Origin: Chiua virens
Taxonomy: Eukaryota; Basidiomycota; Agaricomycetes; Boletales; Boletaceae
Assembly (NCBI GenBank): GCA_019787685.1
Contig: JAHNUO010000018.1
Span: 372,001-436,000 of the forward strand
Length of the DNA stretch: 64,000 nt
Direction: 5' to 3'
Shown piece by piece: positions 7,536-39,563 of the stretch. The notes under the pieces were generated by a model that did no database searches, was not told where the DNA came from, and worked only from the letters and a program-made list of their open reading frames with translations. Every line of letters starts with the position of its first letter. Positions within the stretch are counted from its first letter, which is position 1. Both the position numbers and the translations under genes were made by a program.

Positions 7536-8435
7536 CTACAGAAGCCGTAGTACGGCCTTCACCTTCTCCAATTCAGCCTCCTTTGATGCAATTGCTGTTC
7601 CTTTATCTGCCAACTGCATCTCGAGCGTCTTGTACTCAGTTTTGGAGGCAAGCAGCTCTGCCTCCATAGCGAGCACGGCCCATTTGGCCGCGTCGACCTG
7701 AGAGCGCGTGGGTCCGTCTTGACCTGATGTCTTCTGCTTCTTCTTGGGGCCCGTATCCTCTTCCTCCTCGTTGTCCACAATGGATACCTTAGCTTTAGGA
7801 TGTGGCTTTGGCCTTGCCTTGCACGTATCTGGAACCGGATTGGACGGTTCCGTGAAGAGTTGGCATGGTGGTATGAATACCACCGGTTTTGTGAAGCTAA
7901 ACCGTGTATTAATACACATGGACTGATGAGCAACGCATTATTACTCACCTGGGACCCTCATCGCTTCTGCCTTCCCATCCGTCTTCGCCCTCTTGCCGCC
8001 ACATCTGCTTGAATAGGTGCAGCTCTGGCGGTCCTTTCTGCAGCGTCTGCATACATGACTAGGAACCCCAAAGCAGGGGTACCCTGCGCCTTCGCACTGC
8101 TCGCACGGCACCTCGTGGTCGATGTCACCTTCCTCCCGCAGCAAATTGGTATGGGTCAGCAGTGTGCTCTTGGCTGTACTGCTTTCAACAATGATCGGCT
8201 CGTCCTCGTTCTCCATCACGATAGGACGCTGTGCATATAACCTAGTTAGCATTGCACGTACCAGATATGTATCTGGACATGCACCTTCCATTTCTCCCTC
8301 CCCTCTGGCTTTCCTCTTCTCCTTGCGCCTCCTTCGCGTCTTCTCGTCTCCCGCATCCTCTCGTTCCTCACTCTTGTGCACTGCCGCCGTTGCCTTTGCC
8401 GCGTCATCAGCTGCCTTTCGTAGCTTCTTGGCCGC
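7536..8435 (-). pseudogene. Zn2Cys6 gene of element B, 3' half (zinc cluster and coiled coil)
   Basis: Continuation of the gene that starts at 19,667 and is split by element A. Exon 2b (8,431-7,949) holds a basic KKLRKAADD stretch and a zinc cluster, CX2CX6CX7CX2CX6C, at 8,105-8,019, the spacing of fungal Zn2Cys6 DNA-binding domains. A 52-nt intron (7,948-7,897, GTGAGT...TTTAG) leads to exon 3 (7,896-7,536), which encodes an acidic linker, PKKKQK and a C-terminal coiled coil ending ELEKVKAVLRLL. Relative to the copy in element D, an A run just after the intron is one base shorter (four A, not five), which breaks the frame. So this copy is dead by both insertion and frameshift. Confidence 0.82.
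8432..8435. other. 4-bp target duplication of element A (left copy, CCGC)
   Basis: CCGC directly precedes the 5' LTR and pairs with CTGC at 19,292-19,295 after the 3' LTR, one C/T difference. Counting it once restores the reading frame of the interrupted Zn2Cys6 gene (WWDA continuing into AKKLRKAADD), which independently supports a 4-bp duplication. Confidence 0.8.
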
Positions 8436-9318
8436 TGTAGGAGTCAATGACCCCTTGAGGTGATAAACCCGTGTTCCCGCTTTGTTTACAGGATGCCCGG
8501 ATTGCCCATATCAATTGTCCTACCCATCCGTCGTGGTCCCGTGTCCATCCGAGTGGATCCAACCCATATTCGTATGTTTTGTTCTTCGTTCCTACACGTT
8601 TTCGCGCGAGGTGACCGAATCGGGTTGCTCGATCGGGATCGCACGACGTACACTAATCAACTCTCTTTTGTCCAATTTCTATTTTATTTCGTACCTTCTT
8701 AGATTTTTTTAGACGGTTCCATGTTATCGACACGTATCCGATTGGTTATAAGGAACGGATAGTCGGGTCGTACGACGTTTTAGAGGTAGTCCATTGATTC
8801 ACAGATCAAACCTTATCCCACCTTGACAGAACATTGTTTTCCTTTTCACGGGTCGATCTCCATGAGAGTCGGCTCCATATGCGTATGCTTCCCTTATTTA
8901 TTCGATACTTTATCCGCTGTAAAAGTCCCGGGGAATACCTGAGACTATAAAATTTGTGTTCGTAAATAAAAATTTCATCTTTCGATCCCCGTTTTCTCTC
9001 GCGTTCTAAGTCGCCTCGCCCGTTTATCTATCTTCCCTATCCGCCCTTACTCGTACTCGATTACCGTTGTGCTCGAGTCTCTGCCTTGTCGCCGAACTAT
9101 CCGACTGTCCGCGTTTCGGCCGGTTTTGTCGACCTTCGTATGGTTTCACCCGGGAACGCGTCCGGATTGCTTTCAAAGCTCCTGTCAACGCCTTGACACT
9201 TCGTCTCCAACCTCAGAACCCCTTGGGACAAGTCATACTCGCACCCATCCCTTTTCTTTCTATCTGACAGTCCTACTAACCCTGTTCCTGTCACACCAGC
9301 CTGTTCTTTATTTCTTCA
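8436..9318 (+). repeat. 5' LTR of element A (883 bp)
   Basis: Starts TGTAGGAGTCAATGACC and ends TTTATTTCTTCA. The borders are set by the exact points where identity with the 3' LTR begins and ends. TATAAAA is at 8,946-8,952 and is preceded by a dyad (8,924-8,946). Small ORFs inside it are repeated in the 3' LTR only because the DNA is. Confidence 0.95.
8924..8952 (+). promoter_or_regulatory. LTR core promoter: CGG-type dyad overlapping TATA box
   Basis: Arms AGTCCCGGG (8,924-8,932) and CCTGAGACT (8,938-8,946) form an imperfect inverted repeat with a 5-bp spacer; the last T begins TATAAAA. The same layout occurs in LTR family B (25,237-25,265, arms AGTCCTGGG and CCCAGGACT, perfect) and family E (37,844-37,872). 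CCG/CGG half-sites in inverted order are the usual targets of Zn2Cys6 proteins, and these elements encode such a protein. Binding is inference. Confidence 0.55.
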
Positions 9319-9347: not shown

Positions 9348-12062
9348 AGGTTGTCAGGACGAGATCGCTCAGGCCTACACCAGAGCGACTAGAGGTAGAC
9401 GAGCTACTCTCAAGTCTTAGAAATCCGGATATCTCTGCCAATACCGAGCTTTTTACTTCGGTTACCCCGGATAGAGCGCGGCATAACCGCATTGACTCCT
9501 TCATACTACGTTCACCCGATTCACCCGTTGTCCCGGGCGGTTTTACTAATTTTCCTTCTGAACCGGAAGCCTCTTTTACTCGATACCGTTCACCCGACCC
9601 TGATCTATCTCCTCTAACAACTCTTCCTTCGTTACCGTCCTCACATTCCTCTACCCCTTCTAAACCATCTTCTAAATCCTCTTCCTCCGTTTCTTTATCT
9701 TCTCTACTTAACCCGTCCCCTACATCCCCTTCTCGAACCGTATCATCACCTTCGCAACCGTCTTGTCCTACCCCACCTCCACAGAACCCGATGGCACAAC
9801 AACCCTTCCAGATGCCTTTACGAGGCACACCCAATGCCCCTAAGTTTGACGGAAAAACGCAGTCCGAGTTACCGCGTTACCTGGAGGACATAGAATTCCT
9901 TGGCGACGCGGCTGGTCTTACCCCGACGAACAAGGTAAAAGCTGTGTTACGCTACGCAGCCCTAGATGAAGCCGAGGTCTGGCAAACCCTGCCGGAAACA
10001 ACAGCCAACCCGATGGATTGGGATGCATTCGTGTCAGCGGTTAAAAAACTATACCCGGGATGTGAGGGTACGAACCAATATGGTCGTGCAGACCTCGAGT
10101 ACTTGGCTCAGAAGTGTCACGGCGGGCAGATGCGTAACCAGGATGAGCTCGGGGAATATACTCGAGCATTCCGTAAGGTCTCTTCCGTATTAATTGCTAA
10201 CCAAAAAATCTCAGACATCGACCGTAATGGCCTATACCTAAATGGGTTCCCACCTGAGCTACAGCGGGAGATCCGTGACCGGTTACGCATCATACTACCG
10301 GATCACCACCCTAACGACCCGTATTCCATGGATGATTCCACGAAGGCGGCCACTTTTCTCCTAACGGGTTCTACATTTCGCCCGACATTCACCCCCACGC
10401 TCAGTCCCCCCCCCGTTCACCTCTACATATCAACTGCCACGTCAACCAGCTCAAATACCCGCACCACCCGCATCAACGTATCGACCAACCGCACCTATTC
10501 CCTCATACTCGCCGGCCCCAACAGTGAAGGTAGAGACAAACCAAACCTCACGTACTTCGTCCGCTTGCAAGTTCTGCGGTGGACCCGGCCATTATATGCG
10601 TTCTTGCCCCATCTGCATCGAATACCTCAATACGGCGAAGGTGGTCAGAGGGTCTGATAACAAGCTCTACATGCCGGACGGCTCTAACATCCCTCGAGCG
10701 CCGGGCGGACAATGTTTCAAGGACGGTGTCGACTACGCATGGGCTAATAGCCAACCGGTTCACCCCCCTGTCGCATCCACGTCATCCAGCAGTACTACCA
10801 GGGACTTACCCCCACATATCACGGCAGGCATTCTATCATCCGCGCATCCGGGAACACCAGCGGTCCTAGACATCAAACCGGCCGCCTTTGCACTCACGGA
10901 AACGGACGAGGAAAGCGAACCTCTATCCGTAGTAGCCGACCCGGATTTCCAGCCCTACATTGCACAGGCTTGGGCTATGTTCTAGGCAGATAAGGCGACC
11001 AAGGAAAAGGGTAAACGTGTCCGGTTTGATGGCGTATATATGCCACCTCGGAAACTAAACAGTCGGTCGGCCACGGTGTCTGAGGAGATCATCTCGCCAG
11101 AGTTACAGACCGCCAAAGAAGCTAACCCCAAATCATCATCATCATCTACGCCATCATGCTCCCCACCGGCCTCGTCACCCGCACCCACATCCGCAATAGC
11201 CGGACCGTCCGGTTCTTCTTCTTTTAGTCGTGCCAACGACAATAGCAATCCTCCTTCCCGCGCAGCACAAACTAACCCTTCGTTTAACCCTACGACGCAA
11301 TATAGATACTCGTTTCCGCTCGAGGATGACTCAGCTCCACAACGAGTGTTGGACCAAGTCCTGGATACGAGCATACCCGTGCCCGTTAAAGATTTATTTG
11401 CAGTAGCACCAGAGTTCCGAAAGCAATTTCGGGACCTTACCACCACTAAACGAGTAACGACTAACCTATCCACTCAGGCTGTGCAGGTAAACGAGCTCGC
11501 GGGTCTTGACCCGTTTGCAATCGAACGCCAATACGGCGACCGGATAAACAGAAACGACGACGGACTCATAGTGGCGCATCACAGTCTTCCCCTTCGGTCA
11601 ATCGAGGCCAAGATAGGAGAATCCGGACGACCCATCCAATGCGTCTTGGACTCTGGGTCCGAGATTGTCGCGATGCCCAAACGTATCTGGGAGACACTCG
11701 GTATCCCAATTCGGTCGGATCACACGATGAATATGTCATCCGCCAACACAAGCATTGACAAAACAGTGGGGGTACTGGAGAACCTATCCGTAGACTTTGG
11801 TACGGGCGAAGTGATGCTTCAGGTCCAGATTCTGGCCAGGGCAAACTTTGATCTATTGCTCGGACGACCGTTTCATTGTCTTATGAGTGCGACTACTGAC
11901 GATTACCCGGATGGAGCACAGATGATTACGTTGCGCGACCCTAACACGGGGAAGCAATTCTCTTTGTCTACTCGGGCGTGGACGGAAGGATGCCCCCGTT
12001 GCCGAGAAAAGAAACAGTGTAACAGCCATCAGACTGTCATCGAAATGGACTTGGGTTTTTAG
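9348..12062 (+). pseudogene. Element A gag-protease polyprotein with one frameshift and one stop
   Basis: The first ATG is at 9,791 (MAQQPFQMPL); the same frame is open, without ATG, from 9,348 and is Ser/Pro-rich, so a spliced or non-ATG start upstream is possible. The gag domain covers about 9,800-10,370 (YLEDIEFLGDAAGL to AATFLLTGS). A frame change is needed between 10,370 and 10,420, at or near a run of nine C (10,406-10,414). A CCHC knuckle (CX2CX4HX4C) lies at 10,566-10,607. TAG at 10,983 interrupts the frame. From 11,025 a conserved fungal Pol-linked region (YRYSFPLEDD, LFAVAPEFRKQF; resembles DUF4100) precedes the aspartic protease motif D-S-G at 11,649-11,657. The frame ends at TAG 12,060-12,062, inside the frameshift site. 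Confidence 0.85.
12053..12062 (+). promoter_or_regulatory. putative -1 ribosomal frameshift site between PR and RT
   Basis: The gag-PR frame reads TTG GGT TTT TAG. The heptamer G_GGT_TTT (12,053-12,059) fits X_XXY_YYZ and touches the stop. Shifting back one base enters TTA GCT ATC..., which stays open to the end of RT-RH-IN. The pol frame has no ATG before the RT, so a shift is needed. The same heptamer with a stop occurs in the unrelated element C (4,314-4,305). Confidence 0.65.
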
Positions 12063-15004
12063 CTATCGATGATCCGTATACCAATCGGGGAGATTTCAAT
12101 CTTCTATCCGCGTCGCATCCAGTTTCGTTTTTTTTTAAACTGTCATTCGTTTCATCTCTCTATTTCCCGACTTCTTACACACGGCTTCTGCCTCTTTCGA
12201 TCGGACCAGTTCCGCCTTCGACCGATTACTCATTTTTGTCATCCACGCGTACAGACCCTAATCCGGACGTTCTTTCCGCTATCACTTCCGTTTATTCGTA
12301 TGATACCATTTCGCACGCGCTGGTTTATAAACTGGTAGCACGTAAAGTTCGGTCGGTAGTGGTTCCTACGGGGGAGGAGTTTCGTATCACGCGATCTCTG
12401 CCGGACGATCCTATCGCCGGACTGAAACCTTTACCTACTCATCCACCCGACTTTACCCCTGGACAATGTTTCACACAGGAACGCGCTGATGCTTTAGATC
12501 TTGACCCGGCTAACTGGCTATGGCCAGAAGAAGTCAAATTAATCCGATGGATCGTCCGCGAACACGAAACGGCCTTTGCTTGGATACCGACCGAGCAGGG
12601 CCGTCTCCTCGAACAATATTTTCCCCCTGTCAAAATTCCTACCATACCTCATACGCCTTGGATACTGCGAAACATCCCAGTTCCCCCTGCAATGTGGGCT
12701 GATACGATCCAGATTATCAAGGACCGGATTGCGTCCGGTGTGTATGAACCCTCGACATCTGCCTATCGATCGCGGTGGTTTTGCGTCCTAAAACAGGACG
12801 GTAAATCGCTACGACTCGTCCACGACTTGCAGCCGCTGAACGCAGTCACAATCCATGACTCTTCTACCCCACCCCTTGTCGAACACTTCGCGGAATCTTT
12901 TGCCGGATATGCAGTATACGGGATGATGGACTTGTTTGCCGGATACGACCAATGTCCATTACACCCGGATTCACGCGACCTCACCACTTTCAACAGTCCA
13001 ATGGGTCCGCACCGGCTCACTACGGTACCCATGGGGTACACAAACGCGGTACAAATCTATCAGGCCAACATGTCGTTTATTTTGCAGGACAAGATACCTC
13101 GTTATACCTATCCATTCATAGATGATCTGCCGGTCAAAACAGTCTCGACCCACTACCAAAATTCGGATGGCTCTTACGAAACCATCGCAGAAAATCCGGG
13201 TATTCGTCGCTTCATCTGGGAGCACCTCCTTGTAGTCCATCGCATCCTACAACGACTACAAAACGTCGGAGTAACGGTATCCGCTAAGAAATTCGTACTC
13301 GCAGCACCAGACGCGACCATAGTCGGACACAAGTGTACGGCTGATGGCCGTATCCCTCACGAGAAGAAGGTACAAAAAATCCGCGACTGGCCCGAGTGTC
13401 AGAACCTTACGCAAGTACGCGGATTCTTAGGTGTGTGCGGTGTTCTTCGAATTTTCATCAAAAATTTTGCTATGATTGCTCGACCGTTGGTCAACTTGAC
13501 CCGAAAGAGCGTCTCTTTTGAATGGGGAGAACCCCAGCAAATTGCTATGCTGCGTCTCAAGGATGCGATCTGTCACTCCCCTGCTCTTCGTTGCCTGGAT
13601 TACGAATCCGGGAACGAGGTTATCCTTGCAGTGGATACGTCGTACATCGCGGTTGGCTATATCTTGTCGCAGGAAGGAGATGACGGCAGGAGGTACCCGA
13701 ACCGCTTCGGTTCAATTAGTCTCACAGAGGTCGAGAGCCGCTACTCTCAGGCCAAACTGGAGCTGTACGGATTGTTCCGCGCTTTGCGAGCAGTCCAGAT
13801 ATTCGTGTTCGGTGTTGCCAATTTCACAGTGGAAGTCGACGCGAAATATGTTAAGGGTATGATCAATAACCCAGACCTCCAGCCCAACGCGACCATTAAT
13901 AGGTGGATCGCGGGCATTTTGTTATTCAATTTTCGCCTCGTTCACGTCCCTGCTACCCGACATACTGGCGCAGACGGACTCTCTCGTCGTCCACCATCCA
14001 AGAATGACCCTCCCGAAGAGGATGATTTCGAGGATTGGTTGGACCAAGCATATTCCTTCTCTATGGCATTGTTAAACGACCGGTTGTCACCACCGGGTCG
14101 GTCTGCTCACATTAACAGACATTCCATCACACATTCCTTCCAATCCGTATCCGTATTTGTTTCCCCTATGGCAGAACCGGCAGAACCAGAACCGGTTATC
14201 CCCCGCTCCCCCAAAGCTCTGGCAAAAGAAGCGCGCATTGATCAGATTCGCCTATTCCTCGACGACCGGGTCCGTCCTCCGGATTTGACAGATCGCAACT
14301 TCACCTCCTTCGTTAATTCTGCGACCCGGTTCTTCCTTCTAAACGGATCTCTCTATCGTCGAGAACCGCACGGCAGACACCAGTTAGTCGTGCCAAGAGA
14401 ACGCCGTTACGGACTCATTAAGGAGGCGCATGACGACCTTGGACACAAAGGCGTCTTCTCAGTTCGGACACGGTTACTGCTACGTTGCTGGTGGCCTCTG
14501 CTCATCGATGACGTCAAATGGTATACCCGTACCTGCCACGAGTGTCAAATTCGACAGACGCAGAAGTTTCATATCCCTCCTACCATACCAGTTATGGGCG
14601 GGCTATTTCACAAAGTCCACATCGACACGATGGTAATGCCTCGATCAGGCGGATACCGGTATATTGTACAGGCCCGATGCGCTCTTACTGCGTATCCTGA
14701 ATGGCGCATGTTGCGATCCGAGAATGCGTCCTCCATCGCATCTTTTATTTTCGAAGATATCCTATGCCGTTGGGGAGCCGTCTCTGAGCTCATTACGGAC
14801 AACAGTCCGGCATTCGTACAGGCACTCAACAACTTGGCTACCCGATACGGTATCCACCATATCCAGATTTCCCCTTACAACTCTCAGGCGAACGGCATTG
14901 TCGAACGGCGTCATCTCGATGTCCGGGAGGCCATCGTCAAAAGTACCCTGGGAGGGGAAGTTCGCTGGCCGATGATCGCTCACTCTGTTTTCTGGGCCGA
15001 ACGC
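12059..15004 (+). CDS. Element A pol: RT, RNase H and most of integrase
   Basis: One open frame of about 980 codons reached by -1 frameshift. RT has LVHDLQPLN and the catalytic motif as FIDD (13,115-13,126) in place of the common YxDD. RNase H shows AVDTS, KLELYG, VEVDAK and GADGLSRRP. The integrase zinc domain is H-X4-H and CX2C (about 14,428-14,552). Catalytic integrase residues are D of VHIDT, D of ITDN (14,798) and E of IVERR (14,903), the last two 34 residues apart. The frame is cut at 15,005 by a solo LTR; coding resumes at 15,778. Apart from that insertion the frame has no stop, so this is the best-preserved pol in the window. Confidence 0.92.
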
Positions 15005-15773
15005 TGTAGAAAAGAAATAATAGGTGATAAGAGAAGAAAGGTGGGGCGATAGGTTTGTCCCAAGGGGGGTTATGTTTGAAGGGATGATGGATTCAGGTTT
15101 GTCTAAGAGTCCTAGAAGCTGCTGGACAATCCGGAATGAAAAGCGGTCGATATAAAAGTATCCGGGTGGAGGCGAAGCGATGAGAGTATTGATTCGAGTA
15201 GATGAGACGTCGAGGAACAATAGGACAAGGTAAAAGGGAAACTATCCAGCTCACGCACGCACGGGAGAGTAAACAGGAGATCTCCTGAACGCAGAAAGAC
15301 AATATTTTTGTGTTAGAAACAGGGTTTTATAGTCCTGGGCATAACCCAGGACTGTTAAAGGTAATCTGACCCTAAGTAAGTGTACAGGATTGACGTAGGG
15401 TGAGTATGGAAAGAAGGGGTGTCAAACCTTGTAGATGACAAAGAAAGGGGATTGACGTAGGGTGAGTATGGAAAGAAGGGGTGTCAAACCTTGTAGATGA
15501 CAAAGAAAGGGAAGGTGTTAGGATAGTAATGACCTTAATAAGGCCAAATCGAGTAGAACAAGTCAAATCGGATGAAGCGGAATACGTACGAAAGCACCGG
15601 ATTGGATCGCGTTGACTTGGATTGGACTCGGATTGGACTCGGATGATCTGTAAATGCTAGGAATGAAACTGGGCTGGCACGAAGTCGATGGCGGATGAGA
15701 CGGGAGATGATATGACATGATGAAGAGCGAGGAAAATGTATCCTACAACCGTAGGGAGTATCTAACTCCTACA
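15005..15773 (-). repeat. Solo LTR, family B, in element A integrase (769 bp)
   Basis: Read on the minus strand it runs TGTAGGAGTTAG to TTTTCTACA, as do the LTRs of element D (705 bp). The extra 64 bp is a tandem duplication at about 15,389-15,513. The flanks ACGC (15,001-15,004) and ATGT (15,774-15,777) are a decayed 4-bp duplication; counting it once rejoins integrase in frame (AER to VTI). Confidence 0.9.
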
Positions 15774-15777
15774 ATGT

Positions 15778-16371
15778 GTCACTATACTCAAAGCAACCGG
15801 TCTTTCGCCGTACTTTATGGTACATGGTGTCGAGCCGCTTTTTCCGTTCGATTTATCAGAGGCAACATTTCTCGTTCCCGTTCCTAATGCTGACCCAGTT
15901 TCTAGTGAAAGCTTGATAGCTTGGAGAGCTCGTCAGCTCCAAAAGCGTCAAACAGATATCGATTCTATCCGAGAACGCGTCTTGGCATCACGGTTTGCGT
16001 CCCTTAAAGATTTTGAGGCGCAATTCAAGAACTGGATATGGACGAAAGAGTTTAGTTCGGGTGACCTCGTCTTGGTTCGAAATACGCGGATTGAGAAGGA
16101 GCTGAACCGGAAAACGAAGCCACGCTACCTCGCTCCAATGGTGGTCCTTCGCAGGACTACTGGAGGATCGTATCTGCTAGCCGAGTTGGATGGCGCCATT
16201 TCGAAACTGAGGTATGCGGCGTTTCGCTTGCTACCTTACTTTCCACGGACGAAAATCACTATTCCGGTTACTGAACTGACCAGAATAGGCGACGAGGAAT
16301 ATGACCACTCTGATGCTGAGGAAGATGTTGAGTACGAAGATGAAGACGAGGGCGATGTCTCACAAGACTAG
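15778..16371 (+). CDS. Element A integrase C-terminal part
   Basis: Continuation of pol after the solo LTR: MVHGVEPLFPFDL, a Gln/Arg-rich helix, then a region that resembles the GPY/F module (KPRYLAPMVVLRR...GSYLLAELDG) and a very acidic tail (about 30 residues). No chromodomain is seen. Stop at 16,369-16,371. Confidence 0.85.
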   Translation, partial: VTILKATGLSPYFMVHGVEPLFPFDLSEATFLVPVPNADPVSSESLIAWRARQLQKRQTDIDSIRERVLASRFASLKDFEAQFKNWIWTKEFSSGDLVLVRNTRIEKELNRKTKPRYLAPMVVLRRTTGGSYLLAELDGAISKLRYAAFRLLPYFPRTKITIPVTELTRIGDEEYDHSDAEEDVEYEDEDEGDVSQD

Positions 16372-16993
16372 CCTTCTGTCGTTACCCCCCCCTTATACCG
16401 CCCGATACGTATTTATTCTATCCTGGGTTTAGTCCAGTGCTCTCTATTTCACCCCGGGTTTCGTCCGGTGCACTTGATTTCGAAGAAAAATGATATCCGA
16501 GCCAATAATAAAGTCTTACGATACCCCATAGAACTTCACTCACTCACATCCTCCGCTTTCTCGCTCAGTCAGACCGAAAAGATCTAAAAACCGTAGATAA
16601 AGAAAAAACCAGAAAAACAGAAAAACAGACGTCTATCCATTTCCCCTCCTGCCCCAACGAACTAATACCTAGATTTTCGTCTTCGAACGCGTGATGGGGC
16701 ACACGCACGTTTTGACCCGGTGATAGTTTTACCGACCCGCTTTCGACCGATATAGACGATAAAGGCTACAAAAGTAGGCAAAGACGCGATAGATGACCGA
16801 AGAAAACAAGACGGGCGGAACCCCGCGCTCAGGTGTCATTCATTCAGATCTCTTTTCATTTGTATCGTTTTGTTACCCTTCTAATCCTTGTTTTCGTACT
16901 TAGGGATCTCACTCGGACATGGGCACGGACACGGACACGGATACGGATATCGACTATACGCTATCATACAAGTAGGGACGGGCTGGAAACGAC
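16372..16993. other. Spacer of element A between pol and the antisense gene
   Basis: No gene is seen. The motif pair around CCTGGGTTTAGTCC and CCCCGGGTTTCGTCC (about 16,423-16,475) is homologous to the spacers of elements B and D. GACAC/GGACAC-type short repeats occur near 16,920-16,950. Confidence 0.6.
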
Positions 16994-18247
16994 TCAAGAC
17001 ATTCCAAACGCCAGCTTTACCCTATCCAGTTCTCCCTGCTGCGAAGCGACGTACGATTCCATGGCCGAAGCACAGGCCTGAAGCTCCTTGAAGAAGGACC
17101 TGGTCGACAGGAACTTCGCCTCTAGAGAGAGAATAGCGCGTCGGATATCGTCCGCCCCATCGTAAGGCTCAGACGGCGAGCCAGTCTTAGACTTCTTCTT
17201 GGGCGACTCTACTTCTTCCCCCCCATCTTGAAAAGGGAGTGGAGACACGGGCTTGGACTCGTAGAAGAGCGGCTCGGGCGCATCCGGTGTCGGAGGAGAC
17301 GCAGGTGAAGGATCGACCACAGCCTTGCGAGCCGGGATGGTAACCGTGATAACAGGTAATGCTACGAAAAAGATCAGCCGAGTTGATGCGATCCGAGGAG
17401 AGAGGTCCTACCTGCAGCCTTGGCCTTCGGATCCGCTAGTTTCCACTTCTCAACCGACGGCCCACTCTTAGCGCCCCGACCACTTGACTTGTTGCACCGG
17501 GCCTTGGCTTTGAAGCAAGGATCACAAGTGCGACCCGGAATCCCTGCGCACAACTTACTAGTCCGAGCACACATCTCGCACGCCGGGTCGTGAACCATAC
17601 GATCTGGAATTTTAAGCGGACCCTCGACTACCACCTCCTCCTCCTCGTCACACGGGCTCTCGTCCATAGTGGCCTTACGAGCGGACCGCTGAAAAGAACC
17701 GTTAACAGAGCGAAACATCTGAGGTAACAGCGGTCTCACCTTGCGCTTTCTGCCAGCCTCGACCTCGACGGTCTTGCCTGTCCCCGCGACCGAATCACCC
17801 AGAAGCGAAGCGGATCCGAACGACCCACCCCCCGTTGCCTTGCCTGAGGCGGTTCGTTGTCTCTGAGCGTCCGCGCGTTGAGCTACTTCCCCCTGCCATC
17901 TACGAAAAAACGTGGTTGCTTCGCGCATCGTCTTCACCGTCTCGTCGCTGAGGCGGCAGGAAACGCTGTGCGATTTAGCCTGGCTAAGGGCGGTATTTAG
18001 ATGCTCCTACAAGTCCGGTTAATACCCGACCAACCCTAAGAAACTCGCGAAGTACCAAAGCCCATTGCCACTCCTGGCACCATCCCTCCTGTTCTTCTTG
18101 CAGCTCCTCCTTATCATCCGGCACCGCCAGCGCCACAGCCGCAATCCGATCCTTTCCTTGTGCGAGGTCCTTCTCAACCTTGACAGTCGCCTCATCGACG
18201 GGAGAGTCTGCGAATGCAAGGATGGAGTCGAGGGACGTAAGAGACAT
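16994..18247 (-). CDS. Antisense Zn2Cys6/coiled-coil protein of element A, spliced, about 384 aa
   Basis: Gene on the strand opposite to gag-pol, between pol and the 3' LTR. Model: exon 1 18,247-18,056 (64 codons), intron 18,055-18,007 (49 nt), exon 2 18,006-17,412, intron 17,411-17,362 (50 nt), exon 3 17,361-16,994. All junctions are GT...AG and in phase, and both introns match positions in the element B/D copies. A further in-frame stretch, 17,739-17,689 (GTGAGA...TTTTCAG, 51 nt), may also be spliced (367 aa). Protein: acidic helix (PDDKEELQEEQE), basic region (AGRKRKV), acidic EEEEVVV, zinc cluster CX2CX6CX7CX2CX6C (17,580-17,494), Pro/Ser linker, PKKKSK and a C-terminal coiled coil. It is probably a nuclear DNA-binding regulator. 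The start was chosen because the aligned copy B starts at the same place; an upstream in-frame ATG exists at 18,367. Confidence 0.82.
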
Positions 18248-18369
18248 GGTGACGAGTAGCGAAGCGGGAGGAGAGTAAACTTGTCGAAAGAACGGACGGC
18301 CAACGCGAGGCTTTAATGCGCGGCCGATCCCAGTCACCGGTTCAAGGTCAGCGTTCGCAGGTGTCACGT

Positions 18370-18408
18370 GACTGACTGAGGACAGTCAGTATTCAAGTCC
18401 TTGTCAGG
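18370..18408 (-). promoter_or_regulatory. Putative promoter/operator of the antisense gene (element A)
   Basis: Between the gene start and the 3' LTR lies a perfect 8-bp dyad with an AGGA spacer; its core ACTGAGGACAGT (18,375-18,386) is conserved at the same place in element B (19,787-19,798), within about 35 bp of shared sequence that also includes CACRTGAC and ATYCAAGT. No purine-rich tract is seen where a polypurine tract would be expected. Confidence 0.45.
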
Positions 18409-19291
18409 TGTAGGAGTCAATGACCCCTTGAGGTGATAAACCCGTGTTCCCGCTTTGTTTACAGGATGCCCGGATTGCCCATATCAATTGTCCTACCCGT
18501 CCGTCGTGGTCCCATGTCCATCCGAGTGGATCCAACCCATATTCGTATGTTTTGTTCTTCGTTCCTACACGTTTTCGCGCGAGGTGACCGAATCGGGTTG
18601 CTCGATCGGGATCGCACGACGTACACTAATCAACTCTCTTTTGTCCAATTTCTATTTTATTTCGTACCTTCTTAGATTTTTTTAGACGGTTCCGTGTTAT
18701 CGACACGTATCCGATTGGTTATAAGGAACGGATAGTCGGGTCGTACGACGTTTTAGAGGTAGTCCATTGATTCACAGATCAAACCTTATCCCACCTTGAC
18801 AGAACATTGTTTTCCTTTTCACGGGTCGATCTCCATGAGAGTCGGCTCCGTATACGTATGCTTCCCTTATTTATTCGATACTTTATCCGCTGTAAAAGTC
18901 CCGGGGAATACCTGAGACTATAAAATTTGTGTTCATAAATAAAAATTTCATCTTTCGATCCCCGTTTTCTCTCGCGTTCTAAGTCGCCTCGCCCGTTTAG
19001 CTATCTTCTCTATCCGCCCTTACTCGTACTCGATCACCGTTGTGCTCGAGTCTCTGCCTTGTTGCCGAACTATCCGACTGTCCGCGTTTCGGCCGGTTTT
19101 GTTGACCTTCGTACGGTTTCACCCGGGAACGCGTCTGGATTGCTTTCAAAGCTCCTGTCAACGCCTTGACACTTCGTCTCCAACCTCAGAACCCCTTGGG
19201 ACAAGTCATACTCGCGCCCATCCCTTTTCTTTCTATCTGACAGTCCTACTAACCCTGTTCCTGTCACACCAGCCCGTTCTTTATTTCTTCA
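18409..19291 (+). repeat. 3' LTR of element A (883 bp)
   Basis: Same length as the 5' LTR, about 15 differences by eye, mostly transitions. TATAAAA at 18,919-18,925. It is followed by CTGC, the decayed right copy of the target duplication, and then by exon 2a of the element B Zn2Cys6 gene. Confidence 0.95.
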
Positions 19292-19667
19292 CTGCATCCC
19301 ACCATTCCATCACCTTCTGCGACTCTTGAATCACAAGGGTGACCGTGTTGTCAACCTGAGCCTCAACGCTGGCGTCCCGAGTGTGTTGAAGGCAATCGCT
19401 GAGATGTTTCTGTAAAAACGAATTGTCCGCGGTTAGTACACAACTAGACGTGATTGGTTAACTATGTACCAGGATCTCATCCCATTCCTCTCGCCACATG
19501 GTCTGCTCCTTGGCTAGGTCCTCCCTATCATCCGGGATCGTCTTTGCGAAGTCCCTGGCGTGTCCATTCGCATGCTTCAGCTCCGTCTCAGCAAAGACGT
19601 GTGGTTCGTACGGATCAACCACTTTCTGTGTGTCCACGTATTTGAGGATCAACTCAGCGTACGACAT
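19292..19667 (-). pseudogene. Zn2Cys6 gene of element B, 5' half
   Basis: Exon 1 19,667-19,470 (66 codons, MSYAELILKY...EEWDEIL), intron 19,469-19,410 (60 nt, GTACAT...TTTTTACAG with a TACTAAC branch-point match), exon 2a 19,409-19,292 (KHLSDCLQHT...VMEWWDA). It aligns with the antisense gene of element A in exon structure and in the PDDREDLAKEQ/PDDKEELQEEQ helix. Element A separates it from its zinc cluster at 8,105. A continuous copy would have had about 380 residues. Confidence 0.82.
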
Positions 19668-19820: not shown

Positions 19821-19977
19821 TGTAGGAGTTAGATACTCCCTACGGTTGTAGGATACATTTTCCTTGCTCTTCATTATGTCATATCAACTCCCGTCTCATC
19901 CGCCATCGACTTCGTGCCAGCCCAGTTTCATTCCTAGCATTTACAGATCATCCAAATCCAATCCGAGTCCAATCCGA
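19821..19977 (+). repeat. 3' LTR of element B, first 157 bp
   Basis: Family B LTR in plus orientation, TGTAGGAGTTAGATACTCC at the start; interrupted at 19,977 by element D. Together with 25,036-25,583 it makes exactly 705 bp when the CCGA duplication is counted once. Confidence 0.9.
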
Positions 19978-20682
19978 TGTAGAAAAGAAATTATTGGTGA
20001 TGTGAAGAAAGGTGGGGTGATAGGTTCGTCCCACAGGGGGTTATGTTTGAAGGAATGATGAATTCAGGTTTGTCTAAGAGTCCTAGAGGCTGCTGGACGA
20101 TCCGGAATGAAAAGCGGTCGATGTAAAAGTATCCGGGTGGAGGCGAGGCGATGAGAGTATTGATTCGAGTAGATGAGATGCAGAGGAACAATAGGACGAG
20201 GTAAAAGAGAAACTATCCAGCTCACTCATGCACGGGAGAGTAAACAGGAGATCTTCTGAATGTAGAAAGACAATATTTTTGTGTTAGAAACATGGTTTTA
20301 TAGTCCTGGGCATAACCCAGGACTGTTAAAGGTAATCCGACCCTAAGTAAGTGTACAGGATTGACATAAGGTGAGTATGGAAAGAAGGAGTGTCAAACCT
20401 TGTAGATGACAAAGAAAGGAAAGGTGTTAGGATAGTAATGACCTTAATAAGGCCAAATCGAGTAGAACAAGTCAAATCGGATGAAGCGGAATACGTACGA
20501 AAGAACCAGATTGGATCGCGTTGACTCGGATTGGACTCGGATTGGATTTGGATGATCTGTAAACACTTGGAATGAAACCGGGCTGGCACGAAGTTGATGG
20601 TGGATGAGACGGGAGATGATATGACATGATGAAGAGCAAGGAAAATGTATCCTACAACCGTAGGGAGTATCTAACTCCTACA
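19978..20682 (-). repeat. 3' LTR of element D (705 bp)
   Basis: On the plus strand it runs TGTAGAAAAG to CTCCTACA. Near-identical to 24,327-25,031. Confidence 0.95.
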
Positions 20683-21442
20683 CCCGAGGGGAACACATAT
20701 CCGGTATGCGCGATGCTAACTAGGTTATACACACAGTGTCCTATCGTGATGGAGAACGAGTTGGAGGGCGAGGACAAGCCGATCATCGTCGAAAGCAGCA
20801 CAGCCAAGAGCACGCCGCCGACCCATACCGATTCACTGTGGGAGGAAGGCGACATCGACCACGAGGTGCCGTGCGAGCGGTGCGAGGGCGCAGGGTACCC
20901 CTGCTTTGGGGTTCCTAGTTGTGTATGCAGACGCTGCGGAAAGGACCGCCAGAGCTGCACGTATTCAAGCGGACGTGGCGGCAAGAGGGCGAAGACGGAT
21001 GGGAAGGCAGAAGCGACGAGGGTCCCAGGTGAGTAATAATGCGTTGCTCATCAATCTGCGTGTATTAATACACGGTTTAGCTTCGCAAAAACCGGTGGTA
21101 TTCGTACCACCGCGCCGACTGTTTGCGGAACCGTCCAATCCGGTTCCAGATATGCGCAAGGCAAGGCCGAAGCTGTGTCCTAAGGCTAAGGCATCCATCG
21201 TGGACAATGAGGAGGAAGAGGATATGGGCCCCAAGAAGAAGCAGAAGATGTTGGGTCAAGACGGACCCACACACTCTCAGGTCGACATGGCCAAACGGGC
21301 CGTGCTCGCTATGGAGGCAGAGCTGCTCGCCTCCAAAACCGAGTACAAGACGCTCGAGATGCAGTTGGCGGATAAAGGGACGGCAATCACGTCGAAGGAG
21401 GCTGAGTTGGAGAAGGTGAAGGCCGTACTACGGCTTCTGTAG
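20626..21442 (+). pseudogene. 5'-truncated Zn2Cys6 gene of element D, frame open into the LTR
   Basis: Homology with the element B gene starts at about 20,695 (right after 12 nt of LTR-adjacent sequence), so promoter, exon 1 and the first part of exon 2 are deleted. Exon 2b ends at 21,028, intron 21,029-21,080 (52 nt, GTGAGT...TTTAG), exon 3 21,081-21,442. The zinc cluster CX2CX6CX7CX2CX6C is at 20,872-20,958 and the coiled coil ends ELEKVKAVLRLL. Unlike copy B, the A run after the intron has five A and the frame is intact. The reading frame continues left into the LTR to an ATG at 20,626/20,629 (MKSKENVSYNRREYL), so a protein of about 250 residues with LTR-derived N-terminus is possible. Confidence 0.72.
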
Positions 21443-21969: not shown

Positions 21970-24018
21970 TTATGCTTTGAGACGATGCTTGGACCATTGC
22001 CAAGTAGTCGCAACGTCGACTAACAACGGCGGATCATCAGGTTGAACTATAAAATCAATGAACCGGTTAGTAATGCACAGAAACGGATCCGTATACGAGT
22101 GGATGGCATCGAAAGTGCGTGTTATGCGACTAAAAACGTGAAAAACTGAGCTTGGTATTAGGTACCAACCAAGCTCACACCAAGGGGAACTTGAAATGAT
22201 GACCTCCCGGGCATTGAAAGTACGCAAGGGCTGCGTTATATGTACTCGCGGATTAAGCAGTGACAGATGAGGAATAGGTGGATTAAGTTTTGAAGGCTCT
22301 GTGGTGAAACCGGCTACCCAGGCGGATGGTGAGAATGAAGGCAAAGCGGCCATAACGGAAGACCAGATGTGAACGAGGGGAACTTGAATAGTAAACGACA
22401 GAAACGCGGATGAACGAATGCAAGAAGGAGGTGGATTAAAATGGGGTAGGGACTCGTGTGTAGGTAGAATGAGTAGTTGAAAGGTGCCTGCACGAACGTT
22501 CAGATGTTTCGTGGGCCTTGGGAGTATGCAAACGGCAGTGATCTGGATACGACCGGTTGGGACTGTCTCAGCCAGCGGATCACGACAATCCCTTACAAAC
22601 TGGCTGACACTCGTTTGTCCTAAAATGTTAGTCTTGCGCGGGTATGAAACAAAAATAGATAAAAATGAATGCCTGGGATGGTCAGGGTACAGCCGAGGGG
22701 GCTCGTGTATACTGTGGATCGAAATGATATTACTGGCCGGTAACGCCTGACTCGGTACAATAGCGGTCCACAGATGGAACAGCTGTAGTAGGAAAAGGGA
22801 AAATGATCGGCACGAATGGGGGATGGGTCGATAGGGAGCATTTGAGAGTGATTTCGGGGGAATGGGACGAGAGGCCGGATTGGATGCGAGACCGAGTTCG
22901 GACACGACAACGGGGGTATTTCATAGCTGGGAAATGGCGGGGCTGATTATAGGTTCTACCGATCCGTCATTTGGATCATCCGAATCACGACCGGTTTCGA
23001 TTGGACGTGGTGCTGTGTCGTGTACTACCAGCCGAGTTGTTACCGAATATGACAGAGTGTCCAGTTCGATGTCAAGTAGGTCGCAAGGACAGGCTGACCG
23101 TGCGCCCGTGATGCTGAGAGGTGTCATGATGACGGTTGTACGAGGTGCAATTGGGATTGAGAGTGGTGAGACCGGTTCAGTTAACACGGTCGAATCGATA
23201 ATAAAATCTGTCAGTCGTTCCGTAACCGACGGTCGCGATGACAGAGCAACACACGGGTTGATCTCCGTAACTGGTGCGATAACCACAGCACTATATGAGT
23301 TAGTAGGCAGTCCTTGGATTGATGGTGAAATAAAAACGGATGAAGAGATGGGTCGGTTATACGGAAGCGGATTGTAGGTGTCAGGTAGCAAAAGCGGAGG
23401 TGATTGAAGGCAAAGCGAAGGTGTAGGTGTAAAATAAGAATGTGATCCTGATAAAAGAAACTCGGCTGCATCACGAACGTCATCGAGCACATACGAGGCA
23501 TCTGGGTGGATATCCAGTCGCAGGATTGCTAACCATCGATGAATCTTGTACTGTAAATCGACTGGGAAACCACTAAGAAAAAGAAAGTCTCGATCAAGAG
23601 TTGCTATTCGTTGTCGGGTGAGAAGGAATGATGATAGTTTTGTAAATTCCCGAATATACTTCCCCAGCTCATCAAGGGAGCGCATTGACTTGGATTGATA
23701 GTGATTGACGAGATTTTGGAGATCTTCGAAACAGTACTGGTTATCAAGTTCCAGGTAGAGTGTCTTGACGGCTATAACAAATGCCTGCCAATCTGGTGGA
23801 TTGGCAACCGCTTCAGGTAGGGTCTCCCAAAGGTCACGTATACTGGGATCGACGTAATGCAATGCATACCATACTTTCTTCGATTGGGGCAGTCCAACGC
23901 ATGTGCAAAGAAAGTCGTCATTGTCTAGATATGGTTGGAGATGGGAAGCTTTTCCGCTGAAGGTTGGTACATCCAGGGTGCCTTGATATGGCATCCAGAT
24001 TGTGCTAGCCGCGATCAT
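21970..24018 (-). pseudogene. Element D gag fused to an unknown C-terminal region, one stop
   Basis: ATG at 24,018. The frame is 683 codons to 21,970 with a single internal TGA at 22,923-22,921, where CGA would read Arg. Residues 1-200 are a gag domain aligned with that of element A (YLDNDDFLCTCVGL, LWETLPEAVANPPDWQAF, LDRDFLFLSGFP, AAEFLLSGS). The rest is Ser/Pro/Thr-rich and unrecognised; it has no zinc knuckle, protease or RT, and it ends WQWSKHRLKA, shared with element B. It may package a non-autonomous RNA. Strong antisense frames in this stretch are shadows. Confidence 0.7.
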
Positions 24019-24307: not shown

Positions 24308-24326
24308 CCTCGTGGTGGGCTCCAGT
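24308..24326 (-). promoter_or_regulatory. primer-binding site of element D
   Basis: Minus-strand ACTGGAGCCCACCACGAGG follows the 5' LTR directly and differs from the element A site by one base (G/A). Confidence 0.65.
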
Positions 24327-25031
24327 TGTAGAAAAGAAATTATTGGTGATGTGAAGAAAGGTGGGGCGATAGGTTCGTCCCAAAGGGGGTTATGTTTGAA
24401 GGAATGATGGATTCAGGTTTGTCTAAGAGTCCTAGAGGCTGCTGGACGATCCGGAATGAAAAGCGGTCGATGTAAAAGTATCCGGGTGGAGGCGAGGCGA
24501 TGAGAGTATTGATTCGAGTAGATGAGACGCAGAGGAACAATAGGACGAGGTAAAAGAGAAACTATCCAGCTCACTCATGCACGGGAGAGTAAACAGGAGA
24601 TCTTCTGAATGTAGAAAGACAATATTTTTGTGTTAGAAACATGGTTTTATAGTCCTGGGCATAACCCAGGACTGTTAAAGGTAATCCGACCCTAAGTAAG
24701 TGTACAGGATTGACATAAGGTGAGTATGGAAAGAAGGAGTGTCAAACCTTGTAGATGACAAAGAAAGGAAAGGTGTTAGGATAGTAATGACCTTAATAAG
24801 GCCAAATCGAGTAGAACAAGTCAAATCGGATGAAGCGGAATACGTACGAAAGAACCAGATTGGATCGCGTTGACTCGGATTGGACTCGGATTGGATTTGG
24901 ATGATCTGTAAACACTTGGAATGAAACTGGGCTGGCACGAAGTTGATGGTGGATGAGACGGGAGATGATATGACATGATGAAGAGCGAGGAAAATGTATC
25001 CTACAACCGTAGGGAGTATCTAACTCCTACA
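24327..25031 (-). repeat. 5' LTR of element D (705 bp)
   Basis: Family B LTR; see element D. The 5' end on the minus strand (TGTAGGAGTTAGATACTCC) contains a short dyad, GGAGT...ACTCC. Confidence 0.95.
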
Positions 25032-32027: not shown

Positions 32028-32395
32028 TGTTGGAATATATATAAACTGTTCCAACCATTCCAGGTAGTTCCCGCGCTTCCGAGGCTTCCACTTCCAGAAG
32101 TTCCGAGGTTCCTGTGCTCTGGAAGTACCAGAACAACTATAGACTTATTGTAGTACCTTAGGCACTACAATACAATTAGTTACAATCATCAATGCAGTAC
32201 CATTACTCCTCACTATAGGTACAGCATAGCATTACAGTAGATATATAAACATGTTCTACTGTATATACAGAATAACAATCTTCTCTCTCTTCATCCTCCA
32301 CAATATTGTCTTGAGCTTCACCATCAGGTAAGTCACCAGAGCAGTGACTCTGCCCTCAGGACAACCGGGTCCTTTGGAACCGGTCTGTTCTAACA
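32028..32395 (+). repeat. 5' LTR of copia 1 (368 bp)
   Basis: TGTTGGAATATATATAAAC to TTCTAACA; matches 39,191-39,558. Confidence 0.95.
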
Positions 32396-32407
32396 GGTTA
32401 TGAGCCC
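32396..32407 (+). promoter_or_regulatory. primer-binding site of copia 1, matches initiator tRNA-Met anticodon region
   Basis: GGTTATGAGCCC directly after the LTR is complementary to GGGCUCAUAACC, the anticodon loop and stem of initiator tRNA-Met. Priming from a cut half-tRNA is known for Drosophila copia. Confidence 0.65.
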
Positions 32408-32737
32408 TGAGTGGCCAGCTGTGCGATATACCCGCCGCTGACTGCTCTTGGTGGACACCTGATAATTCACCATCCAATGCAATTGAATATTAATATTCTT
32501 GCTGGATGTGCTGAATAAAGCCAGTCCTGTGTGATTGAGAATTCTCACTGGACACTCCCTTTTGATGCAAATACACTCAGGGAAATGGGCTTTTAGACCT
32601 ACAGTGTAGGGGGAGACTATGTCACCCCAATCTGAGGGTCACTGAATGTTCAGCAGATGCGATTGATTTCTCCTTGCTTCCTTCTTCTCTGTGAATAAGG
32701 TTTACTGACATTCATACCATCAGATTACCTACCTGTT
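32408..32737. other. Leader of copia 1
   Basis: Untranslated stretch between the primer-binding site and gag; contains GGGGGAGAC at 32,608 but no gene. Confidence 0.5.
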
Positions 32738-34396
32738 ATGTTGTCTAACACGCTCAACAACATTTCTAAGCTCAACGGATCTAACTACTGTCGCTGGGCT
32801 GATGACATGAAGAATTATCTTCAGTCAGTCAGTGTCTGGAATGCCTGTATGAAACGGACATGCCCCACGGATGATGATTTGGAAAAGCAGAATAATTGGG
32901 ATGACAATGATGACAAAGCCATGGGTTCCATGAAGCTTCAGATTGAGCATCACTTGCTCAGTCGTCACACTGACTGTGGTACAGCTCTTTCCCTCTGGAA
33001 TTCACTGAAGCAACAGTATGATGGCCACACCATCTCTTCCGCTTATTCTGAATTCAAGTCCATGATGTCCCTTTTCTTCTCAGAAAATCAGTATCCTGCC
33101 CAGACTTTTGCCAAATTCAATACCCATTTTGCCCAGCTCGAGTCTTTTGAATACAAGGTTGATGACAAGATCAAGCTGATGATCGTCCTGTCCCAGCTAC
33201 CCAAATATGCCAACTTCTACACCAATTTACTCAATACTGCTGCAAATGAGAAACCCTCTGCCGATACCAAAATCCCTACTATGGCAGATGTAGAACAGGC
33301 CATCACAGCTGCTTGGCAACAACATGTTGCTCGCTGTCCAACTCAGACCAGATCTCAGGCTAAGCCTGAACAGCAAGTGAACAAGGTTTCCGCTGTTAAG
33401 CGGAAAGGGGAGGAACCGAAGTTTGGTGCCCAGCAGAAACAACAGGGAAATTCTAGTTCCAGTGGTTCTGGTCCAGAAGGCTTCGGAAGGAAAAAGAGAT
33501 GTGGCAAATGCTCTGACTATAGCAAGAACCCCCAGCAACATCGCCACAAAGCCAACATTGTAGCTGAGAAGGTCCCCTCATTTGCTTTTGTCAATTTTGA
33601 TGAAGAACCTGTCATCATTGATCCTGCCTCATCCACTTTCACCTCTCCGACCATTGACCCACGTCTGCTCTCCCATAAACCAGCTTCAACTCACTATGGT
33701 CCTCCTGCATTCCCTCATGTTCAGAATGCAATATCCCTTCTCCACCGTATTTGGGAAACACCTTCAATTCAATCTGTTCACAATGTGGACATGATAGCCA
33801 ACAAGCACTTGGATTGGTCGGAAGAAATTCCCACTTCATCCAAGCGTCTCTTGGAATGTGTTGAACAAGACACTTCCATGGCTGTCATTGAGGATGAAGA
33901 TGCTGTCTCCCTTGGTGATGATGAAGACGACTGGCTTGGACACTACTATGATTGTGGATCCACTCCCGAGTATGTCTCTCATTCCAGACAATCCTACTCT
34001 GACACTAACGCGCACCTTGTGTTGCAGCAAAGTCATTTACTAGTGTCTAATGTAGTAGATAGTCTGAGAATATCATCTGCTACCCAGCCTCTCACAATGT
34101 GTGACAACTGTCACAAGTACACAGGCAAAGGAAAGCAAAGAGAGATCACTCATGAAGAAGATATCCCAGACATGTGGTTACTTGACTCTGGAGCATCATC
34201 ACACTTTACTTCAAATATTGATGACTTCGTTGAGTATAAGCCATACACCACACCACACTATATGCAAACTACAAATGGAAAAGCTCCTGTATTAGGTTCA
34301 GGAACTGTCATCATTGAGTATGAGAGCAGACCTGTGTGTTTATCACCAGTCATTTATATGCCTGCTTGTAAAATCAAGCTAATTTCAATGGGCACT
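32738..34396 (+). pseudogene. Copia 1 gag and protease
   Basis: ATG at 32,738 (MLSNTLNNISKLNGSNYCRW, a copia gag start). UBN2-like gag region to about residue 190, Gln/Ser-rich linker, then CGKC followed by HRH in place of a normal CCHC knuckle. Long Pro/Asp-rich segment, then the protease motif LLDSGASSHF near 34,180. The frame is open up to the solo LTR at 34,397, where it is cut; it resumes at 35,036. Confidence 0.85.
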
Positions 34397-35030
34397 TGTT
34401 ACAATTTCTTTCTTTTGTCTCACTTGTACCTCTTCACTTTACTCAATACCTAGGTATCATCGTATGCTCATCCGTACTCATTCTCTTCTGCCTTTGTAAC
34501 TCCACACCGGCTTTACCCGAGTGTTTACGTTTTCCCTTTCTCGTCATCATCCGATGGCATCGCACTTACTCATTCACTTCTCGTCATCATCCGATGGCTT
34601 CGCATTTGTCATTTCGTCTTCGTCATCGTCCATTGCCTTCGCATCGTACGATTCCCCTTTTTGATTACTGCGCACTTCTTTTGGCCCTTTGGCCCTTCCG
34701 CAATCTAGCTGAGTATCTCTGCTCCACTCGCCACAGCGCCTGTGACCACTCGACCAGGGACTTCTCTCGTCGTCCCTTGACCCAACACTCGGACTCATTG
34801 TAGTCAACCCTCGACCCTCGACCGTCCCTCGGGTATAGATTCCCAACAGGACAACTCTCAGCAATGCCTGAGTTTTCACTCGTCTCTCTGGTAGCAATCC
34901 GCTGACCAGAACCACTTGTTCAACTCTTCAGCGCACCACATATCAAGTGGTGGTTGTTTGAGTTATCACACCCACTTGGTACTTGGCGCTTTTGCGGCTA
35001 CGTTAGGTCCTACCTGGAACTACCGTAATA
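34397..35030 (+). repeat. Solo gypsy LTR in copia 1 (634 bp)
   Basis: TGTTACAATTTC to TACCGTAATA with perfect duplication GCACT (34,392-34,396 and 35,031-35,035). The 3' half is clearly related to the gypsy C LTR; the 5' half has diverged. Confidence 0.92.
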
Positions 35031-35035
35031 GCACT

Positions 35036-37561: not shown

Positions 37562-37565
37562 ACAC

Positions 37566-38179
37566 TGTAGGGAATAGGTATTCCCTGTGCTCGCATAGCA
37601 CGTTTCCGCACCCTGTCATCACCTGATCCCAATCCTGATCTGTCTGCTTGTGTGAACTCATCCGGATTGCTGTATCTGCACCCATTTTGCCTCAGACTCT
37701 TTTATTTTATGTTTGATGCTCCTTATTTGTACTTAGCATTGGCTAGACCATGTCATGCAGCCCTTGCAGGGACATTCGGGTGCCTCTTGAACTTTATACC
37801 ATACGAAAACCTTCTTCTTTTATCATTATCCTTACTTAGGACAAGTCTGAGGGTATTCCCGAGGACTATAAATTCACTGTATTGACAAAAATACAGTAGC
37901 TTTTGCCCGTGCGCATCTGTCTCACATTGTTTTCGGTCGACATTCGTTTTCTCTTGCTCTCCTCGTGTTTTATTGATCCGGATTTGGACTGCTGTGTCCG
38001 CTTTTCCATCCGTTTTAATCTGGATTCGCCCCGGATTCATCTCAGACTACTCAAAAACCATTTCTCGTCGTTCACCAACTCAGTGTTGTCCCTGGGTCGA
38101 ACGGAATCGCATTCCTTCACCCTCTTTTATATTTCAATCCCCCTGAGTATTGCACTACAGCCGGGATTTATTACCTTCA
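37566..38179 (+). repeat. Solo LTR, family E (614 bp), in copia 1 RT
   Basis: TGTAGGGAATAGG to ATTACCTTCA. Flanks ACAC (37,562-37,565) and ACGC (38,180-38,183) form a decayed 4-bp duplication; counting it once rejoins YIDDT to LFCR in frame. The first 20 nt hold a perfect dyad AGGGAATA/TATTCCCT. TATAAA at 37,867. Confidence 0.92.
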
Positions 38180-38183
38180 ACGC

Positions 38184-39129: not shown

Positions 39130-39190
39130 CAGCTTGTGCGAAAGTCCTTTCTTATGCCTGAAGTGTCTGCATACACAAGGCAAGGGGGAG

Positions 39191-39558: not shown

Positions 39559-39563
39559 GAAAC

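Follow-up and report, generated by a model that had tools for sequence, protein, structure and literature searches.

Can a spliced protein gene reside inside an LTR retrotransposon, on the strand opposite to gag and pol, and what would such a gene do there? The question is raised by a 64,000-bp stretch of the Chiua virens genome (C18:372001-436000, hereafter the window), where the first-pass annotation had described an antisense, spliced Zn2Cys6 gene of one common plan next to the 3' LTR of three related gypsy-type elements (A, B and D). Copies of this gene were sought in the whole genome (48.3 Mb, 136 contigs), and the features of the three elements are given in Table 1.

Organization of the elements and their antisense gene

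Element A is a Ty3/gypsy LTR retrotransposon, with an LTR pair and with protease, RT and RNase H followed by integrase; the integrase core (E = 8e-5) is under its Pfam cut-off and H2C2 is above it. The named relatives of its pol in the protein database are all from Agaricomycetes (Rhodofomes, Leucocoprinus, Candolleomyces and Pleurotus). Elements B and D are members of a single family, being 88% alike over 1.9 kb, and no pol match was found in D, in agreement with its earlier description as an element lacking pol. The D-family LTR that interrupts A contains a perfect 62-bp tandem duplication (window 15387-15510).

Table 1. Features of elements A, B and D in the window (positions are those of the window).
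Feature	Position	Strand	Remarks
5' LTR of A	8436..9318	+	LTR pair
gag-like ORF of A	9791..10657	+	43.7% identical to D gag over 211 residues
Protease ORF of A	11040..12062	+	DUF4100, aspartyl protease
pol ORF of A	12236..15052	+	RT, RNase H, H2C2; integrase core under Pfam cut-off
D-family LTR in integrase region of A	15005..15773	-	Insertion, splits integrase region
C-terminal integrase ORF of A past insertion	15817..16371	+	By position alone; no Pfam match above cut-off
Antisense gene of A, exon 4	16994..17361	-	C-terminal heptad stretch, TGA stop
Antisense gene of A, exon 3	17412..17688	-	Six-cysteine cluster; KRKR straddles exon 2/3 junction
Antisense gene of A, exon 2	17740..18006	-	267 nt, equal in length to family B exon 2
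Antisense gene of A, exon 1	18056..18247	-	Acidic, net charge -10; PDDKEELQEEQ...W..EW
Conserved block ahead of A 3' LTR	18364..18408	+	TCACGTGA (E-box like), then hairpin CTGACTG-AGGA-CAGTCAG (18372-18389)
3' LTR of A	18409..19291	+	LTR pair
Antisense gene of B, exon 4	7536..7896	-	
Antisense gene of B, exon 3	7949..8228	-	Holds cluster
Antisense gene of B, exon 2 remainder	8285..8435	-	Limits approximate
Antisense gene of B, exon 2 first part	19292..19409	-	Cut by A insertion
Antisense gene of B, exon 1	19470..19667	-	
3' LTR of D	19977..20682	-	
Antisense gene of D, exon 3	20737..21028	+	D is a minus-strand element; exons 1-2 missing
Antisense gene of D, exon 4	21081..21442	+	Last 55 residues modelled as single helix
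gag of D	22921..24018	-	D without detected pol
5' LTR of D	24325..25031	-	

In A the gene runs opposite to gag-pol, after the pol stop and before the 3' LTR, and encodes a protein of 367 aa in four minus-strand exons. Its three introns have lengths of 49, 51 and 50 nt, borders GT..TAG, GT..CAG and GT..TAG, and phases 0, 0 and 1. Several choices of intron 1 left the frame open, as did retention of intron 2 (51 nt), and the model adopted was the one whose intron positions agree with family B. With this four-exon model, the spliced antisense gene proposed between the coding region and the 3' LTR of A was confirmed. All four exons are homologous between A and B (25-40% identity), with the introns in place, and the B gene is split within exon 2 by the insertion of element A. 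The common plan claimed for the three elements therefore holds for A and B, whose intron places agree, and fails for D, because D retains exons 3 and 4 only; the D remnant begins 12 bases from the D LTR. A (CGGACA)n array (window 16914-16947) adjoins the antisense stop codon of A and differs in length among copies.

Genomic copies and linkage to the elements

The A gene gave 43 DNA matches in the genome, and translated searches at E<=1 gave 69 matches for the A cluster exon and 62 for the B cluster exon. The two queries also detected each other's places (B-type places by the A query with E 5e-6 to 0.26, A-type places by the B query with 1.5e-4 to 0.13). Copy statistics rest on the best-scoring 30 loci of each family search, so the sample is biased to well-kept copies. 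Within it, a full-length uninterrupted gene was present at 25/30 A-type and 23/30 B-type loci, and the full-length copies retained GT-AG at 74/75 A introns and 69/69 B introns (143/144 together). Their frame was open in 10 of the 25 A and 9 of the 23 B copies, one open copy per set lacking a cluster cysteine (L026, L050), and more than half of them have broken frames (15/25 in A, 14/23 in B). Codon-aligned stops were mainly CGA to TGA (8/14 in A, 22/31 in B), which fits CpG decay following insertion.

The family's own LTR was matched beside the gene at 26/30 A loci and 26/30 B loci, and the LTR start was visible in the flanks of three of the other eight (L032, L033, L048). Most family copies have the antisense ORF beside the 3' LTR, and it can be classed as an aORF-3R (antisense additional ORF, pol to 3' LTR).

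Linkage was also found from the sense genes. A pol search, in which 49 of 649 candidates were scored, gave 55 matches, 12 of which belong to a sister family (48-50% identity), while the other 43 merged to 32 A-like places. An A-type gene piece lies within 8 kb at 28 of these 32 places; at three exceptions the nearest gene piece is 10 kb (C1:60825), 14 kb (C30:205750) or 32 kb (C7:1830561) away, and at the fourth (C14:637297) there is no gene piece anywhere on the contig. For the B family, gene exon 3 lies within 4.1 kb of gag at 30 of the 39 B-type gag places listed (a 61-residue piece and additional pieces at places already counted were omitted). These linkages support the proposal that the gene is shared cargo of the elements; the matches fall mainly within elements, not in a host gene family situated mostly outside LTR pairs.

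Exon 3 is 2,991-2,993 bp from the gag start in seven plus-strand B copies and B gag takes 1.1 kb, so that no space is left for a 2.8-kb pol. The B family thus has gag without pol, and nevertheless retains the antisense gene. The nine non-linked gag places include the window's own B, where the distance is 9 kb with insertions between; at the other eight, exon 3 is absent up to a distance of 20 kb. Among those eight, C16:610679 and C88 show other gene pieces, C39 and C47 show no exon 3, and four with gag of 74-76% identity (C14:42909, C14:115433, C30:306896 and C79:25905) have no gene piece within 20 kb and are perhaps a gene-less relative of B.

The 12 pol pieces of the sister family, whose pol is about 49% identical to A pol, have no gene piece within 12 kb. 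The sister LTR start was placed via LTR-only matches starting near query base 62, and in the 12 sister-type copies read (11 in the family and one 75% relative) the LTR follows 48 bp after the pol stop, with no gene between. The sister family is a cargo-free arrangement, and both a gain in the A/B ancestor and a loss in the sister fit it. Weak tblastn matches of the A and B proteins in a sister stretch, L079 (E 0.008 and 0.012), span its LTR and were taken as chance. In the 12 sister-type copies a purine tract, GTGAAAGGGAGG or GTAAAAGGGAGG, stands ahead of the 3' LTR, and A (window 18390-18408) and B have no purine run at the same place (CCTTGTCAGG, TCCCCTCGGG).

Two relatives were detected outside recognised elements. 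One (L077, contig C4, 3939-4463) matches the cluster and coil of both families, lacks intron 3 and has an open frame of 175 codons; a full-length search with it found only this locus in the genome. Its 8 kb gave no match to gag, protease or pol and no DNA match to the window, and it sits between two direct segments that are 77% alike. The other (L078, contig C14, 3601-4131) encodes, in an open frame, a tandem pair of related cysteine clusters. The two loci may be donor genes or descendants.

Selection on the gene

The dN/dS comparison proposed earlier revealed coding constraint among the copies: dN/dS was 0.415 in the gene frame versus 0.863 and 0.683 in the other frames, and differences at codon positions 1-3 were 0.062, 0.072 and 0.098, with 0.100 in introns. 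Compared with a context-matched null, the nonsynonymous/synonymous ratio outside CpG was 0.43-0.53 of the null value in A and 0.35 in B, lower than in all 500 replicates. Constraint on exon 4 was weak (0.87, 8/300) when the older D copy served as reference. The alignments show that frames and splice sites were kept while the A and B families diverged. At the level of sequence, two element families carry the gene as protein-coding cargo under selection, with a layout for antisense reading and splicing.

A conserved hairpin before the 3' LTR

Between the ATG and the LTR there is a 35-bp block that is alike in A and B at 31/35 positions. Its variation outside CpG was low, 0.016 in A (26 copies) and 0.003 in B (23 copies), where the leader had 0.047 and 0.033; L032, L033, L035, L037, L070 and L072 were dropped. 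The block core occurs 72 times in the genome versus 7 for the reversed control, and 64 of the 72 are within 2.5 kb of a gene piece. The hairpin core reads CTGACTG-AGGA-CAGTCAG in A, CCGACTG-AGGA-CAGTCGG in B, GTGACTG-GGA-CAGTCAC in the sister family (L079:64-80) and GCAACT..AGTTGC in the 75% relative (L080). In a covariation test on eight sequences chosen from about 70 (two A, two B, three sister, one relative), 96.2% of cells pair and none of 500 shuffles reached the covariation score, while slid versions scored far lower; 3/7 pairs change on both sides, which 108/500 shuffles equal. Single copies lose hairpin pairs through CpG decay.

The palindrome was considered as an antisense promoter or self-binding site, and this was rejected, since the covarying form is present in gene-less sister elements. 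Because these carry it, the hairpin does not depend on the gene and belongs to the clade as a cis element of the retrotransposon, paired or palindromic. Beside it, CACGTG (TCACGTGA) was present in A and B alone of the sequences compared, and is a candidate for a putative antisense promoter. When the blocks were compared with the LTRs, the A block shared an 8-mer with the A LTR (195/500 shuffles equal) and the B block a 10-mer (23/500, one marginal result of four); no repeat of the A or B block was found in the B LTR (499/500 and 423/500 shuffles as good).

Features of the encoded protein

Exon 1 has a net charge of -10 in A and -8 in B, and KRKR lies at the exon 2/3 junction in the A copy and in a B copy (L046). 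The cysteine spacing is CX2CX6CX7CX2CX6C in A and B, with one additional loop residue in the C4 relative, and a G and a P of the loop are invariant in the five sequences aligned. Members of the Zn2Cys6 family (PF00172) follow the spacing CX2CX6CX5-12CX2CX6-8C, a pattern that the A and B clusters satisfy. The Pfam Zn_clus profile PF00172 gave no match to the A protein at E<=10; one of five members scanned matched it (E = 4.7), and other places in the same genome pass the cut-off. Basic residues occur mainly in the second cysteine half (FKAKAR, GKDRQS, AKQKSK), the first half of A having one R and one K; in GAL4 the basic DNA-contact residues lie in the first half. A model of exon 3 built from three sequences (pLDDT 58.5) has two short helices, and this weak model found no match in the PDB with Foldseek. 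Given the missing Zn_clus match, the poor exon-3 model and the lack of a fold match, we speak of a cysteine cluster with Zn2Cys6 spacing and not of a Zn2Cys6 member: of the Zn2Cys6 gene first described the spacing survives, and family membership is unproven.

Of 2000 shuffles, 6 equalled the C-terminal heptad pattern of A, 50 that of B and 61 that of the C4 relative, and a model of D exon 4 from three sequences is one helix (residues 64-118 of 119, mostly pLDDT >90). The Pfam hits of the antisense protein include no PF04195 (TRP28), bZIP or fungal_trans domain. No protein homologue elsewhere was found among the roughly 8,000 candidates scored for each of two queries, the A protein (E<=0.001) and alignment A1 (E<=1), a weak negative because candidates need exact words and exons may be split in the database, which holds Agaricomycetes. 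Viral contigs gave no match for A1 or the pol alignment, and the best PDB match by sequence had only E 0.31 (coil against ribosomal protein L9).

Comparison with known antisense genes

A fungal precedent for the position is brtn, which reportedly goes back to Zhao et al. 2011. In the available parts of four citing papers it is an additional antisense gene of Boty-like gypsy elements in Botrytis cinerea (PMC8365987, PMC7264820, PMC4227169, PMC5987419), placed between pol and the 3' LTR by the review among them (PMC7264820). By this description only, it resembles the A/B gene in being antisense, in a fungal gypsy element and between pol and the 3' LTR; its host is an ascomycete, unlike here, and those parts of the four papers contain no statement on its domains, introns or selection. 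The earlier claim that such a gene had no fungal description is thus contradicted for the position (PMC7264820, as far as available) and stands for the cluster: no report of a fungal zinc-cluster gene antisense between pol and the 3' LTR was found in the literature, with subscription papers mostly outside the search. As far as this literature shows, four features are new: introns that are conserved, a cysteine cluster, a carrier family without pol, and a relative outside the elements.

Among plant gypsy elements, Grande, RIRE2 and Retand are established carriers of an antisense ORF that separates pol from the 3' LTR, according to the available sections of two papers (PMC7264820, PMC11963269). 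The Retand ORF has a predicted DNA-binding TRP28 domain (PMC11963269); TRP28 is PF04195, absent from the hits here, and the word "intron" is nowhere in that paper's main text, as available. The gene23 of Grande in maize is alike in being antisense and in encoding a nuclear protein, with its own promoter upstream of the gene (PMC7264820), and differs in its plant host and in that the review's account, in its available sections, does not mention a cysteine cluster.

The best understood working analogue of an antisense retroelement gene is HBZ of HTLV-1, which in the available text of PMC10186651 is antisense, spliced and starts at the 3' LTR end, has an N-terminal activation region and a C-terminal dimerising helix, and acts on the element's own transcription. 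HBZ differs in being a bZIP protein, not a cysteine-cluster one, there being a heptad stretch only here, and no homology is implied. Fungal Zn2Cys6 (GAL4-type) regulators share with the A/B protein the cysteine spacing and a coiled-coil stretch further on, and are set apart from it by its lack of a Zn_clus profile match, the basic second half and the missing fungal_trans domain.

Possible role and origin of the gene

The most likely reading, which we hold to be somewhat more probable than not, is that the gene product is an element-encoded nuclear regulator working like HBZ. A and B are two families of one Ty3/gypsy clade that carry an accessory protein gene opposite gag-pol, between the last sense ORF and the hairpin preceding the 3' LTR. 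Antisense splice signals stay in the sense genomic RNA and are unspliced there, so an intron-bearing gene can survive reverse transcription. Transcription would start from a promoter in the 161 bp ahead of the LTR, or in the LTR, and be followed by splicing. The predicted nuclear protein would have an acidic N-terminal part, a signal of the KRKR type and, at its C-terminus, a coiled coil through which it would pair; its cysteine cluster, presumed to bind zinc, would contact nucleic acid, and the protein would adjust the expression or chromatin state of the element that encodes it, like HBZ for HTLV-1. The gene would probably have come from a host zinc-cluster gene, or would itself be the source of the single-copy C4 locus.

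A fuller scenario is offered more tentatively: the clade may have captured a host transcription-factor-like gene with its introns and kept it antisense, where reverse transcription cannot remove introns; it may now serve as a self-encoded dimerising nuclear regulator convergent with HBZ, kept even by a pol-less family that uses others' pol, and the intron-3-less C4 locus may be the donor or a domesticated descendant.

The rival that survives best, although we consider it unlikely, is that the protein serves replication, as a nucleic-acid chaperone or as a nuclear-import or integration-targeting factor aiding cDNA in trans. Retention of the gene by the pol-less B family would suit such a role, as would the combination of cysteine cluster, basic patches and heptad stretch and the lack of a CCHC knuckle in the sense frames of D by pattern search. 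However, A elements also encode a CCHC knuckle (at window 10566, where this copy has it out of frame with the 9791-10657 ORF; 2/3 other copies examined have it in one frame with pol), and a spliced mRNA and an acidic N-terminus are more regulator-like.

Passive retention of a host zinc-cluster gene captured once, with an apparent constraint produced by few source copies and mutation bias, is a still poorer candidate. The CpG-decay type of most stops, the broken frames in over half of the full-length copies and the relatives outside elements agree with it, but the non-CpG null test, the homology of four exons at 25-40% with introns and the maintenance in two families do not. It is very improbable that the antisense transcript matters and not the protein, by forming dsRNA with the genomic RNA and limiting copy number through RNA interference: the gene does overlap the sense genomic RNA by position, and such a role has been proposed for ORFs of this kind (PMC7264820, available sections), but frame-specific codon constraint and kept splice sites would then be unexpected. 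A benefit to the host, with the elements as mere carriers, is likewise very improbable: the open single-copy C4 relative outside recognised elements speaks for it, but dozens of element copies, the absence in the sister family and the decay after insertion fit element cargo.

The available sections of the plant review call the function of LTR-element antisense genes undetermined and urge a look at spliced antisense transcripts (PMC7264820). The present case combines a cysteine cluster and three conserved introns with numerous copies of graded age, a gene-less sister family and an outside relative, and by this combination the regulation, replication-helper and RNA-only models become testable. 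The preferred reading, a self-encoded regulator, would if true be a clear example of an intron-bearing gene living inside a retrotransposon.

Other elements in the window

The pol-less B family has a second sense ORF (window 21973-22905, minus strand), with no Pfam match at E<=0.01; in 24 copies, the constraint on one part of it (21973-22524) is frame-specific (0.73 of null, 0/300; other frames >1). The window also contains a copia-type element (32028-39559), whose LTR-like repeats (32028-32396 and 39191-39559) are 96.5% alike, and two Tc3-type transposases and one Plavaka transposase (1914-2930, 46395-47216 and 49032-49808).
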